Below are positions 39,721 to 53,081 of a stretch of 64,000 nucleotides of DNA, one piece after another. The stretch's first letter is position 1, and the number at the start of each line of letters is the position of its first letter. The position numbers and the translations under genes are program-made. The stretch comes from an uncultured Bacteroidota bacterium (lineage in GTDB: Bacteria; Bacteroidota; Bacteroidia; Bacteroidales; VadinHA17), in contig CAIMVD010000031.1 in NCBI GenBank assembly GCA_903844815.1, forward strand, positions 1 through 64,000. Reading direction: 5' to 3'. The notes beneath the pieces were generated by a model that was not told the origin of the DNA, searched no databases, and saw nothing but the letters and a program-made list of their open reading frames with translations.

Positions 39721-42267
39721 ATGAGCCGTACCTTAGTTTTCCGATTCTTAACATTAACAGTAATTATTTGTTATTTCGGAGCGTTGGAGGCTCAGGACTC
39801 CCCAAGGCTGCGTGAGTCGTTCAATGAGGGGTGGAAATTTGTAAAATATTACAATGCTTCAACGGACCCTGTTGCCAGCAACAAGGAGCCCGCAAACCTT
39901 CAGTCACCTGCCACGAACGATAAAAACTGGCGTTCACTTAATCTTCCCCACGACTGGGCTATTGAGGGTCCCTTCAGTGATACTCTTGAAAACAATACCG
40001 GACTTCTGCCATGGAAAGGGATCGGATGGTACCGGAAACATTTCCAGGTAAGCAGCAATGACAGGGACAAAAGAATCTATATCGATTTCGACGGAGCCAT
40101 GGCCTATGCCAAAGTATGGCTAAACGGGAAGTTTGTTGGCGAATGGCCATACGGATACACATCCTTCAGGCTTGATCTGACACCTTTTGTTAATTATGGG
40201 AAGGAGAATGTAATCGCAGTGCGACTTGATACTAAGAGCTGGGATTCGCGTTGGTATCCCGGAGCCGGAATTTACAGGAATGTATGGCTTGTAAAAACGG
40301 CCCAGGTTCATATTTCACAGGATGGAGTGTTTTGTACTACACCTGAGATAAAGAAGGAACAGGCTGTACTCAGCGTCAGCACAGAAGTTGAAAGCCATCT
40401 GAGCGATCCTGTATCTGTAACTATCAGGACATCTGTATATAAACTTGATAAAAACCTTAACCCCGCCGGTTCTCCTGTAGCCGAATCAATAACAGCAACA
40501 GCAACCATTGAGGGGATGAAAGGTCATTCTTTCAGGCTCGACATTCCTGTCAAAGAACCGGTTTTATGGAATATTGAGAGTCCGGAATTATACAGGGCAG
40601 TTGTTAGTGTCATGCTTGGAGACAGAATTTCAGATGTCTATGAGACCAACTTTGGTTTCAGGACTTTAAATTTCACAGCCCGTGACGGCTTTCTGCTCAA
40701 CGGTAAGAAAGTGGATATCAAGGGTGTTTGTAACCATCATGACCTAGGCGCTCTTGGTGCCGCATTCAATATCCGCGCTGCTGAACGGCAGCTCGAAATT
40801 CTCAGGGAGATGGGCTGTAATGCCGTCAGAACAACCCATAATCCACCGGCTCCCGAACTGCTCGATCTATGTGACAGAATGGGTTTCCTGGTTCAGGTTG
40901 AAGCCTTCGACACATGGAAGACTCCAAAGAAAAAGGGTGATTATAATAAACTCTTCTATTCATGGCACGATGAAGACCTCAGGGCTATGGTTCGCCGCGA
41001 CAGGAACCATCCTTCAGTATTCATCTGGAGCACCGGCAACGAAGTAAACGATCAGGATAATCCTGCTCTTTCTGAAAGTCTCAGGACTATAATAAAATCA
41101 GAAGACAATACCAGACCTGTAACTGTTGGCTGCAACTGGGATGAGTCGGGAACAAATGGTTTCCAGAAAACCGTCGATGTTTTCGGGATTAACTACCGCC
41201 TTTACAGGTACGATGCATTCTTTCAGCTGAAAGACAATGCAAACCTTCCTTTTCATTCTTCGGAATCGGCATCAACGATAAGTTCAAGGGGCGAATATTT
41301 CTTTCCTGTCGTAGAGGGGGACCTTAATAATAATCTACCCGGGAAGGGAATTTTTCAGATTTCATCATACGACCTTGCCTACCCTGCCTGGGCTTCATCG
41401 CCCGATCAGCAATGGGAAATGCAGGACAGATACCCGGGTGTGTTCGGCGAATTTGTCTGGACAGGGTTCGATTATATCGGGGAACCGACACCTTATGGCG
41501 GAGACCTTACTGGTTTGAGGCCCGGAACTAAAAGATACGATGAGGCTAAGCAACTGCTCGACAAACAAAATGTCTCGGAAGTTCCCTCACGCAGCAGCTA
41601 CTTCGGGATACTCGACCTTGCAGGATTCAAAAAAGACCGGTTTTATCTGTACCAGTCTAAATGGAGACCCGAACTGCCAATGGCCCACATCCTCCCCCAC
41701 TGGAACTGGCCCGAAAGAAAAGGATTGGTTACACCCGTACATGTTTATACTTCGGGTGATGAAGCCGAGCTGTTCCTTAATGGCAAATCACTGGGAAAAA
41801 AGAAAAAGGGACCACTTCAATACCGCCTCAGATGGGACGATGTCGTCTATCAGCCCGGGGAATTAAAAGTAATTGCCTGGAAGAACGGAATAAAGTGGGC
41901 TGAAGAGGTGATGAGAACAACGGGAAAAGCTTCTGCCCTGTCGATCTCATCAGACCGGCCATCAGTAAAAGCTGACGGGACTGATCTGATTTATTTAACT
42001 ATAAGGATTGAAGATAAGGATAAACTTACAGTACCGGGGAGCAACAACCCGATCAGCTTCAGCATTGATGGTCCGGGAAAGATAATTGCTACCGATAACG
42101 GAGATGCCACGAGCCACGAATCATTCCAGTCTCCATCAAAAAAGGCATTTAATGGCATGTGTCTGGTGATAGTAGCGACAGAAAAAGGTGCTTCAGTTCC
42201 CTTCACTGTAAAGGCAGAATCAAAAGGACTAAAATCCGCTTCGGTAATAGTTAACATATCCAAATAA
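39721..42267 (+). CDS. GH2 beta-galactosidase-like enzyme (DUF4982 type)
   Basis: Secreted glycoside hydrolase family 2 enzyme of 848 residues, signal peptide 1-24. Sugar-binding domain (about 28-195), Ig-like domain (200-310) and TIM barrel (315-600), with acid/base E441 in IWSTGNEV and probable nucleophile E515 in FHSSESAS. A DUF4982-type domain follows (about 640-725, with VHVYTSGDEAELFLNGKSLG), then a GH2 C-terminal domain with SADGTDLIYLTI-like strands. Related enzymes act on beta-galactosides or beta-glucuronides; the substrate cannot be settled here. A different GH2 subgroup from the one at 25886. Confidence 0.92.
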   Translation: MSRTLVFRFLTLTVIICYFGALEAQDSPRLRESFNEGWKFVKYYNASTDPVASNKEPANLQSPATNDKNWRSLNLPHDWAIEGPFSDTLENNTGLLPWKGIGWYRKHFQVSSNDRDKRIYIDFDGAMAYAKVWLNGKFVGEWPYGYTSFRLDLTPFVNYGKENVIAVRLDTKSWDSRWYPGAGIYRNVWLVKTAQVHISQDGVFCTTPEIKKEQAVLSVSTEVESHLSDPVSVTIRTSVYKLDKNLNPAGSPVAESITATATIEGMKGHSFRLDIPVKEPVLWNIESPELYRAVVSVMLGDRISDVYETNFGFRTLNFTARDGFLLNGKKVDIKGVCNHHDLGALGAAFNIRAAERQLEILREMGCNAVRTTHNPPAPELLDLCDRMGFLVQVEAFDTWKTPKKKGDYNKLFYSWHDEDLRAMVRRDRNHPSVFIWSTGNEVNDQDNPALSESLRTIIKSEDNTRPVTVGCNWDESGTNGFQKTVDVFGINYRLYRYDAFFQLKDNANLPFHSSESASTISSRGEYFFPVVEGDLNNNLPGKGIFQISSYDLAYPAWASSPDQQWEMQDRYPGVFGEFVWTGFDYIGEPTPYGGDLTGLRPGTKRYDEAKQLLDKQNVSEVPSRSSYFGILDLAGFKKDRFYLYQSKWRPELPMAHILPHWNWPERKGLVTPVHVYTSGDEAELFLNGKSLGKKKKGPLQYRLRWDDVVYQPGELKVIAWKNGIKWAEEVMRTTGKASALSISSDRPSVKADGTDLIYLTIRIEDKDKLTVPGSNNPISFSIDGPGKIIATDNGDATSHESFQSPSKKAFNGMCLVIVATEKGASVPFTVKAESKGLKSASVIVNISK

Positions 42268-42275
42268 TGAAGTAC

Positions 42276-42384
42276 TGGCACGGATTGCAAATCCGCGCCA
42301 GCGTTGTTTGATCAGGTTGGCACGGATTGCAAATCCGCGCCAGCATTGTTTGATCCGGCTGGCGCCGATTTGCAATCGGGGCCA
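42276..42384. repeat. Three 25-bp palindromes at an exact 42-bp period
   Basis: Palindromes at 42276-42300, 42318-42342 and 42360-42384 begin exactly 42 bp apart. Each starts TGGC and ends GCCA with an inner arm pair around a G(C)A centre (copies 1 and 2: CGGATT-GCA-AATCCG; copy 3: CCGATT-TGC-AATCGG). Spacers between them are 17 bp and nearly identical (TTGTTTGATC core). They resemble REP elements. The array ends 23 bases before the -7 element of the NADH dehydrogenase gene. Confidence 0.9.
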
Positions 42385-42407
42385 TAAAACAGATTGTTTG
42401 TTTTTTG

Positions 42408-42415
42408 TACCTTTG
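42408..42415 (+). promoter_or_regulatory. Candidate -7 element, possibly giving a leaderless mRNA
   Basis: TACCTTTG matches TAnnTTTG and ends six bases before the ATG at 42421. If used, transcription would begin at or within a base or two of the start codon. No exact -33 TTTG is seen. Confidence 0.4.
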
Positions 42416-42420
42416 CCCTC

Positions 42421-43698
42421 ATGAGCACGAAAGAGTTAATAGCAAAAAAAAGAATCATAATTGCCGGCGGTGGATTTGCTGGTCTTCAGCTTGCAAAAAA
42501 GCTGAACAAAGCCGACTATGATGTATTGCTTATCGATAAGCAGAACCACCATCAGTTCCAACCCTTATTCTACCAGGTAGCAAGTTCCAGACTGGAACCT
42601 TCAACAATATCCTTTCCTTTCAGAAAGATCTTCCAGAAATATTCAAACCTGAATTTCATTTTGGGCGAAATAACAGGAATAAGTCCTGATGAAAATGCAG
42701 TTGAGACCACGCGGGGAAAACTCTTTTATGACCTTCTTATCATAGCAACGGGATGCGATACCAACTACTTCGGCAATGCAGATATGAAGAAGTATTGCCT
42801 CCCAATGAAAACTACGGGTGAAGCTATAGAGATCAGAAACAGGATATTACTGGGATTTGAAGACCTTTTCTCACTCAGTGATGCCGATAACAGCGCTAGG
42901 CTCAACCTTGTGATTGTGGGCGCGGGTGCAACCGGAGTTGAACTTGCAGGTGCTTTTGCCGAGATGAAGAAAAGCATACTGCCAAAGGATTATCCGGGCA
43001 TCGATTTCTCCGAATTCAGGATACTGCTGCTGGAAGGTTCAGCCAATACACTCAATAACATGAGCCTGATGGCAAGGAACGCATCCCGCGAATATCTCGA
43101 AGAGCTGGGAGTTACAATTATGACAGAGGTTTTTGTCACCGGTTACGACGGTACCACTCTGACCCTTAGCAATAACAGCACAATTCAAAGCAAGAATGTA
43201 ATATGGTCAGCAGGCGTTACAGGAAATATTGTTCAGGGCCTGGCCAAGGGTAGTATAACCAGATCGAACAGATATATTGTTGACAGGTTCAATAAAGTTG
43301 TCGGGCATAAAAATATTTTCGCCATTGGTGATATAGCCTACATGGAAACTCCCAAATATCCCAAAGGGCATCCGCAGGTAGCCAACGTTGCTATAAACCA
43401 GGCTAAAAACCTGGCGGCCAATCTGGGCAGACTGGAAAAAGGAACTACCCTCAAGGAATATGAGTATTTCGATATGGGATCAATGGCAACAATTGGAAAA
43501 CACAGGGCCGTTGTCGACCTGCCATTTGTAAAGTTCAAAGGCTATTTCGCATGGTTCGTCTGGATGTTCCTTCACCTGATGCTTATATTAAGCGTGAAGA
43601 ACAAACTGATGATATTCATCAACTGGGGCTGGTTTTACCTCACCCATGATTCTTCACTAAGACTTATTATTGATATCTCAAAGAAGAAGCAGGCTTAA
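42421..43698 (+). CDS. ndh: Type II NADH dehydrogenase (NDH-2)
   Basis: Membrane-attached FAD enzyme that passes electrons from NADH to quinone without proton pumping, 425 residues. The first dinucleotide fold is IIIAGGGFAGLQLAKKL near the start and the second is VIVGAGATGVELAG (about 163-176). IFAIGDIAYMETPKYPKGHPQVANVAINQAKNL (split here) is the FAD/quinone-side region. A hydrophobic C-terminal segment (about 376-400, FAWFVWMFLHLMLIL) anchors it. ATG at 42421 gives the normal family start; an upstream TTG at 42394 would place the -7 box inside the gene. Confidence 0.92.
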   Translation: MSTKELIAKKRIIIAGGGFAGLQLAKKLNKADYDVLLIDKQNHHQFQPLFYQVASSRLEPSTISFPFRKIFQKYSNLNFILGEITGISPDENAVETTRGKLFYDLLIIATGCDTNYFGNADMKKYCLPMKTTGEAIEIRNRILLGFEDLFSLSDADNSARLNLVIVGAGATGVELAGAFAEMKKSILPKDYPGIDFSEFRILLLEGSANTLNNMSLMARNASREYLEELGVTIMTEVFVTGYDGTTLTLSNNSTIQSKNVIWSAGVTGNIVQGLAKGSITRSNRYIVDRFNKVVGHKNIFAIGDIAYMETPKYPKGHPQVANVAINQAKNLAANLGRLEKGTTLKEYEYFDMGSMATIGKHRAVVDLPFVKFKGYFAWFVWMFLHLMLILSVKNKLMIFINWGWFYLTHDSSLRLIIDISKKKQA

Positions 43699-51998: not shown

Positions 51999-52943
51999 AT
52001 GAAAGCATTCTACCAGTTATCGTACAAAAAACCTGATTCCTCTGTTTTAGGCGAACTGCCTGATCCCTTAGCCGCTGAGGGCCATTTACTTATTACTGTT
52101 AAAGCAGTATCAATAAACCCAGTCGATTACAAGATAAAGAACGGAGACCTCCGGTTCCTGGTCCCTTCGAAATTTCCGAAAATTGTGGGAACTGATTTTG
52201 CAGGAATAGTCAGGGAAGTTGGTTCAGGAGTCAAGAATTTCAAGCCCGGCGACAGGGTCTACGGTGCTGTGAATCTTTTCTTTGGAAAACAGGGGGCCCT
52301 GGCGGAGCTTCTGTCGACGGATGAAAAAAGTACCCGGCATATCCCCGATGGCATGTCATTCGAAGAGGCTGCCTCACTGCCTGTTGCTGCACTAACTGCA
52401 CTAAATGGTTTGAGGAGATGCGGGATTAAAGAAGGCGACCGTGTATTTATAAACGGGGCAACAGGTGGAGTTGGCCACTTCGCACTTCAGATTGCAAAAT
52501 CGAAAGGAGCCATTATTACAGCCTCATGCAGCGATGCAAACGTCTCCCTGGCGAAGCAACTTGGAGCCCATTTCACAACTTTGTACAACAAACCATTGGC
52601 TGAACCGAAAGAAGGACCATTCGATTCAATACTGGATGCGTATGGAAAAATGTCCGGTACCGATATCAACCGGCTTCTTAAAAAGGGTGGAACCTATGCT
52701 TCTCCCCTCTTCATGCCTCCATCACAAATACCTGCTTTTTTTACCCGGCTAATTACAGGCAGAAGACTTACCTCATCAAATATGAGGAAACTGCCGGAAG
52801 ATTATGAAGAGATCGAGAGACTTTTCAGTGAAAAGAGACTAAAACCTTTAATCGAAAGCATCTACACTCTCGACAAAGCAGCTGAAGCCTTTGAGAAAAC
52901 TGAAAATGGGAAACCAAGAGGCAAAGTGATCGTAACCATCTGA
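51999..52943 (+). CDS. Zinc-independent MDR-family NAD(P)-dependent oxidoreductase
   Basis: Medium-chain dehydrogenase/reductase of the quinone-oxidoreductase group, 314 residues. The GroES-like N-terminus has VSINPVDYKIKNGD and GTDFAGIVREVGSGVKNFKPGDRVYG (split here). The Rossmann fold has INGATGGVGHFALQIAKSKGA. Zinc ligands of alcohol dehydrogenases are absent. The end matches the family form (KAAEAFEKTENGKPRGKVIVTI). It diverges from the transporter operon; no link to its function is obvious. Confidence 0.9.
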   Translation: MKAFYQLSYKKPDSSVLGELPDPLAAEGHLLITVKAVSINPVDYKIKNGDLRFLVPSKFPKIVGTDFAGIVREVGSGVKNFKPGDRVYGAVNLFFGKQGALAELLSTDEKSTRHIPDGMSFEEAASLPVAALTALNGLRRCGIKEGDRVFINGATGGVGHFALQIAKSKGAIITASCSDANVSLAKQLGAHFTTLYNKPLAEPKEGPFDSILDAYGKMSGTDINRLLKKGGTYASPLFMPPSQIPAFFTRLITGRRLTSSNMRKLPEDYEEIERLFSEKRLKPLIESIYTLDKAAEAFEKTENGKPRGKVIVTI

Positions 52944-53056: not shown

Positions 53057-53081
53057 TGGCGCGAATTTGTAATTCGTGCCA
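53057..53081. repeat. 25-bp palindrome, sister of the 42276-42384 array
   Basis: The same 25-bp frame (TGGC...GCCA) as the three palindromes at 42276-42384, but with inner arms CGAATT and AATTCG instead of CGGATT and AATCCG. The change in one arm is matched by its complement in the other. It stands alone in the spacer before the DUF3795 gene. Confidence 0.75.

Follow-up and report, generated by a model that had tools for sequence, protein, structure and literature searches.

The window (the whole stretch of 64,000 nucleotides analysed here, from an uncultured bacterium of the phylum Bacteroidota) carries four palindromic repeats, three of them arranged as an array in the space between two genes and the fourth standing alone some 11 kb away (Table 1). 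The array is preceded by an 848-aa open reading frame (ORF) that ends at 42267; the ORF that follows is listed with a TTG start at 42394, and its likely start is the ATG at 42421. The solo copy is located past an ORF ending at 52943. The initial annotation had noted palindromes beginning at 42276, 42318, 42360 and 53057, and all are present; they are also the only exact matches to the family pattern within the window. The strand of each copy was set by its loop, ATTTGYAAT.

Table 1. Palindromic repeats of the window and the intergenic space that holds the array.
Feature	Coordinates	Strand	Description
REP copy 1	42276..42300	-	Type B, GGCGCGGATTTGCAATCCGTGCC at 42277-42299; 5' GCT tag at 42300-42302
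REP copy 2	42318..42342	-	Type B, oriented as copy 1; 5' GCT tag at 42342-42344
REP copy 3	42360..42384	+	Type A, GGCGCCGATTTGCAATCGGGGCC at 42361-42383; 5' GCT tag at 42358-42360
Solo REP copy 4	53057..53081	+	Type C, GGCGCGAATTTGTAATTCGTGCC at 53058-53080; AAT in place of the GCT tag
Intergenic space holding the array	42268..42420		From the ORF end at 42267 to the next ORF

Copies 1 and 2 are direct repeats of each other over 42 nt (93% identity). Copy 3 matches them solely as an inverted repeat (27-nt arms, 89% complementary) and has different arms, CCGATT/AATCGG, so that the exact 42-bp spacing described earlier for the three copies stands, but the third unit is inverted and differs in its arms, which that description had not mentioned. 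Copies 2 and 3 form a head-to-head B/A pair with a gap of 19 bp. A CRISPR array was considered and rejected, since the "spacers" that go with copies 1 and 2 hardly differ and copy 3 runs the opposite way. The arm change from CGGATT/AATCCG to CGAATT/AATTCG in copy 4, previously read as compensated, is real. As single-stranded DNA, each copy folds into a hairpin with a 3-nt loop (computed energies for copies 1 to 4 of -12.6, -10.7, -10.9 and -11.7 kcal/mol); among 200 shuffles of each, 0, 0, 1 and 0 fold as well.

These palindromes are not a product of chance: a search of the window's own genome, a draft in 411 contigs, with GGCNNNNATTTGNAATNNNNGCC (a pattern with fixed ends and a fixed loop region in which four stem pairs are free) returned 217 matches (101 + 116) with at most one mismatch, whereas the reversed pattern returned 4 (2 + 2), and within the window only the four copies match exactly. 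The prospect that few or no further copies would be found did not hold, and the numbers are those of a REP, an imperfect palindrome of 20-50 nt with about 100 or more copies per genome. Copy-level counts come from 37 stretches around 100 of the 217 match places, plus the window, which together hold 163 matches at up to two mismatches and 154 at up to one. Stem pairs were counted in all 154 copies, two of which were later dropped as non-members; ORF overlap and flank profiling used 152 copies (144 of them alignable with 25 bases on both sides), and the analysis of tags and orientation dropped five matches and kept 158.

Along the stem, pair 5-19 is C-G in 149 of the 154 copies. At pair 6-18, 80 copies have G-C and 67 have C-G (C.C in 3; T.G, G.A, A.G and A.C in 1 each), and at pair 7-17, 143 have G-C and 7 have A-T (G.T in 2; T.T and A.C in 1 each); the arms, which had been expected to prove mostly uncompensated if the hairpin reading were wrong, are thus mostly complementary at both positions. 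Pair 4-20 is G.T in 81 copies and G.G in 68, with G.A in 2, A.C in 1 and a Watson-Crick pair in 2. Three arm types can be distinguished: type A (CCGATT/AATCGG, mostly with G.G at pair 4-20), type B (CGGATT/AATCCG, mostly with G.T) and the rarer type C (CGAATT/AATTCG, with G.T); the fourth combination, CCAATT/AATTGG, was found in genomes of the same genus. The family consensus reads 5'-GCT-GGCGC[C/G]GATTTGYAATC[G/C]G[G/T]GCC, with the rarer C type besides. Since copies arose by duplication, the compensation figures tally copies rather than independent events; some contig-end arrays, moreover, look like one array assembled twice (those on contigs C197 and C286 have common spacers, and those on C17 and C328 are alike), so that the copies are not all independent.

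The trinucleotide GCT stands immediately 5' of the palindrome in 131 of 157 copies and GAT in 19; beyond this tag the flanks of the 144 aligned copies lack conservation. The classical REP tag, GTAG or GTGG, is absent. Neighbouring copies follow a rule whereby two copies in the same orientation have the same arm class and two in opposite orientation belong to different classes. It is obeyed by 100 of the 101 neighbours scored (at most 83 bp apart): 39 share orientation and class, 61 are opposed and join A to B or C, and a single case breaks the rule. Eight copies with mixed arms were typed x, and their seven neighbour pairs were left out of the 101. Permuted arm types obey the rule in 50% of neighbours on average and 67% at most (1000 permutations). 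The opposite orientation characteristic of REPs in BIMEs is found in 62 of the 101. The rule holds less strictly in sister genomes: genome G018 has two opposed type-B copies 64 bp apart.

Head-to-head pairs are tightly spaced: of the 28 with a gap of 60 bp or less, 23 have one of 18 or 19 bp, their usual spacing is 41-42 bp (23 of 31), and about 11 unlike spacers (likeness judged by eye) join them. Neighbour spacings below 200 bp span 31 to 135 bp; those between same-strand minus copies are 37 bp (11 times), 41 bp (8 times), 42 bp (5 times) and others, and those of plus-minus neighbours are 31-66 bp. The 42-bp period is therefore no general rule of the family, being local to the window's array and to head-to-head pairs, and with neighbour spacings varying from 31 to 135 bp a general helical phasing at 42 bp was rejected.

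Among 60 genomes, including the window's own, the family is present in 14, all in the window's genus, and exact copies number 115 in the own genome and at most 10 in any other. The type-B pattern occurs in 2 of 395 genomes of the phylum, again including the own genome. Exact matches to type A were found in seven stretches from five Bacteroidota assemblies of a named collection from which the own genome is possibly excluded, Marinilabiliaceae bacterium JC017 among them; no RAYT gene adjoins type A in the seven stretches.

RAYT genes associated with this very repeat are found in two relatives. Ten of the 14 REP-bearing genomes were searched, and in two of them (the sister genomes G033 and G026) a RAYT gene is framed by the same REP, with direct copies upstream and inverted copies downstream, which is the arrangement, a RAYT gene between two inverted REPs, that belongs to the definition of REP/BIME systems. 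In G033 three REPs stand on either side of the gene, those upstream facing those downstream; two of the upstream copies have 2-3 mismatches and one of the downstream copies has 2, and the downstream copies are 42 bp apart. In G026 one upstream REP faces two downstream. GCT precedes 5 of the 6 flanking REPs in G033 and all 3 in G026, as counted by eye. A methyltransferase-like ORF adjoins each gene on one side and a saccharopine-dehydrogenase-like ORF on the other (named by eye). Their products, of 184 aa in G033 and 189 aa in G026, score above the cut-offs of both families searched: P0001 and P0002 reach 90.7 and 96.6 bits against NCBIfam NF047646 (cut-off 80), and 24.9 and 32.8 against PF01797 (cut-off 23).

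Alignment of the two cognate proteins with eight homologues shows H60, H62 and Y139 to be invariant in all ten sequences, and NH[IL]H in 8 of the 10, the cognate proteins having SHLH. A search of the PDB by sequence with the sister RAYT gave no match. Its AlphaFold model (pLDDT 87.3) has as best fold match in the PDB the E. coli RAYT with a REP hairpin, 4er8 (E 1.2e-8, TM 0.66 by query, 19% identity, rmsd 8.1). Altogether 27 PDB entries match this fold at E <= 0.001 and, judged by their titles, are Y1 transposases.

RAYT homologues elsewhere are flanked by other hairpins, for example CGGGCGGATTTGCAATCCGCCCG in genome G038 and AAGCGAAGTTTGCAACTTCGCTT in G013, as co-evolution of RAYT and REP would predict. 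Inverted similarity between the two flanks exceeds that of all 200 single-base shuffles at 7 of 10 RAYT loci, and does not at L066, L069 and L070. At loci L062, L063, L067 and L070 we also observed CGTGC or GTGCT within about 15 bases before the RAYT start codon.

The earlier proposal of a REP/RAYT system is supported: a RAYT framed by the same REPs exists in G033 and G026. A search with P0001 found no cognate gene in the window's own assembly, and the corresponding site lies past a contig end. Contig C338 ends within the dehydrogenase-like neighbour (the match reaches 15752 of 15757 and covers 265 of 346 residues) and the methyltransferase-like neighbour has no match in the own assembly, which together place the site of the sister RAYT outside it. 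Absence of the methyltransferase is in itself not rare, as a strong match (E < 1e-20) is present in only 28 of the 37 genomes, with a weak, paralogue-like one in 6 and none in 3. Arrays at contig ends abound in the own genome (for example at L078, L082, L089, L096 and L103): of the 41 clusters listed, 17 are no more than 150 bp from a contig end, a zone that makes up about 1% of the bases of those contigs. REP arrays probably break the assembly there, and a gene framed by REPs would easily be lost from it.

The absence of a RAYT from the window, as first reported, was borne out, for none of the seven Y1_Tnp matches in the own genome (E <= 1) is on the window's contig, C31. In the assembly Y1_Tnp is matched four times at E <= 0.001, and a single RAYT-like match falls under the cut-off. 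The Y1_Tnp or RAYT-like genes on contigs C318, C257, C300, C210 and C172 were considered as mobilisers of the family and are not supported as such, since the surrounding 1.7-3.3 kb hold no REP copy (the best has 4 mismatches). On C318 (L031:1000-2353) the Y1_Tnp gene is ringed by different palindromic repeats (around GCCCCGTAGGGGCGCC), with several tandem copies on both sides. On C257 (L032:1990-2140) three head-to-tail units of about 50 bp reach the contig end beside the Y1_Tnp gene. On C172 (L035:1030-1695) the 221-aa RAYT-like ORF holds in-frame near-palindromes such as GGGACACGACATGTCGTGTCCC, with more just upstream; REP insertions inside genes have been reported for RAYT subclass 2.4 (in the available text of PMC6006769).

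A rather unlikely alternative is that the copies are orphans, RAYT having been lost from the genome, and that they persist as relics or were spread by recombination or by an enzyme supplied in trans. Consistent with such a loss, the own genome has no gene like P0001, and the genus has many sites that lack it: at 13 of 18 same-genus methyltransferase loci both neighbours are adjacent without a RAYT, the two neighbours not both being visible in the stretch examined at the other 5. A different enzyme could also have acted, as about 2.6 kb separate one REP on C257 from a different Y1_Tnp gene. Against the loss, the site itself lies outside the assembly, the dehydrogenase-like neighbour running off the end of C338, and the near-identity of the copies suggests recent activity. 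Among the 13 other REP-bearing genomes of the genus, all drafts, the cognate RAYT is present in G026 and G033; G013 and G002 each match RAYT but with different hairpins close by, and the remaining 9 show no such match.

We consider it highly probable that the window holds a small BIME, composed of two inverted type-B REPs and one type-A REP, with a solo REP 11 kb off, and that these REPs spread by a Y1/HuH RAYT mechanism. The anatomy of the array is that of a BIME, and a domesticated transposase (RAYT) probably spreads the hairpin repeats. By analogy with the E. coli enzyme, the repeat, when single-stranded, would fold into a hairpin that a Y1/HuH single-strand endonuclease (RAYT, or TnpA_REP) would bind on one strand only, recognising the loop, the unpaired stem position and the 5' tag; the enzyme would then cut beside the hairpin and copy or move REPs or REP pairs into other extragenic sites, where arrays may subsequently grow by tandem duplication. 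We infer that such a RAYT, recognising the hairpin, moved the copies in the own genome. Several observations count against this reading: the genome with by far the most exact copies has no cognate RAYT in its assembly, RAYT-less sites and relatives without a RAYT match are frequent, and the GTAG/GTGG tag is absent. As to the last, RAYT subclass 2.6 also lacks GT[AG]G in its flanking structures (as given in the accessible part of PMC6006769), so that this tag would define classical REPs and not subclass 2.6.

The initial annotation had raised the question of whether copies avoid coding sequence, and they do: 23 of 152 overlap an ORF of at least 100 aa, while such mechanically called ORFs cover 88% of the bases examined. 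Clusters with genes on both sides lie between convergent genes in 9 cases, co-directional genes in 13 and divergent genes in 3. This mostly intergenic placement, together with the strong fold of the array as RNA (z -5.7, copy 1 pairing with copy 3 around copy 2), would also suit intrinsic terminators or mRNA-stabilising hairpins kept at gene ends by selection on the transcript. As the origin of the family we hold this to be very improbable: copy 1 is the only one of the four that is terminator-like in a scan, and it is so on the strand antisense to both flanking genes; the family has no conserved T-run after the hairpin; and the arrays, the rule linking type to orientation and the association with RAYT would be left unexplained. 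A secondary effect of the repeats on transcripts is possible. That the repeat is a palindromic operator, read as duplex by a dimeric protein, is scarcely credible, for although it is a near-palindrome of constant length in gaps between genes, its arms change together with pairing kept (a duplex site needs no compensation between arm types), a non-Watson-Crick stem position is retained, and the arrays obey a strand-linked rule of types.

The family belongs to a known kind, REP/BIME with RAYT. RAYT genes framed by inverted REPs, BIMEs whose REPs alternate in orientation, modified REPs that keep their palindromes, and segments between REPs that lack homology are described in the available portion of PMC2817692; for the E. 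coli RAYT, activity is affected by both the GTAG tag and the stem mismatch, and only one of the strands is used (PMC8266576, in part). Like E. coli REP/BIME sequences and RAYT group 2, the present repeats are imperfect hairpins found in high copy number between genes, with two kinds of REP that face opposite ways, a stem position left unpaired and a REP-framed RAYT gene, and the best match of the sister RAYT model is itself the E. coli enzyme; unlike classical REPs, they mostly have GCT and no 5' GTAG or GTGG. REPINs and tagged REPs are treated in PMC3116915 and PMC3733652 (both in part). With the REPINs of P. fluorescens, as portrayed in the sections of PMC3116915 at hand, the family shares inverted REP pairs at a preferred spacing, tandem clusters and proximity to RAYT, but its head-to-head spacing of 41-42 bp differs from their peaks at 71 and 110 bp, and its pairs join different arm classes.

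A further close likeness is to RAYT subclass 2.6 (group 5 of Bertels et al.), which, according to the portion of PMC6006769 available, is found mostly in Bacteroidetes, measures about 179 aa, has the motifs NH[LIV]H, WQ, YIH[QN]NP and SS, and is flanked by "atypical" structures. The two cognate proteins agree with that account in phylum, length, WQ, YIH[QN]NP (here YIHNNP) and SS, and their flanking hairpins likewise lack GT[AG]G and recur elsewhere in the genome; in a motif-level comparison they differ in having SHLH for NH[LIV]H. A literature search, which beyond the cited papers covered titles and the beginnings of abstracts, found no paper on this repeat; supplementary tables, which may list it, were outside its scope.

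To a subclass whose hairpins are little described in the available text of PMC6006769, the family adds anatomy (a 5' GCT, a non-Watson-Crick stem position, strand-locked arm classes and cognate enzymes in sister genomes), and it suggests a reason for the breaks at REP arrays in draft genomes of such species. The part worth following is the strand-locked arm classes with their fixed gap. We suggest, tentatively and with considerable doubt, that the mobile unit is a heterotypic pair, in which a G.U hairpin of type B or C and a G.G hairpin of type A lie on opposite strands, head-to-head, with a gap of 18-19 bp. Were this so, the Bacteroidota RAYT would measure the length of the spacer and act on two hairpins, one per kind, with GCT in place of GTAG as its guide, and a RAYT of the own genome, if it exists, would be expected to have A at one flank and B at the opposite flank. 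Cognate enzymes and hairpin anatomy together make hairpin recognition by subclass 2.6 directly testable.
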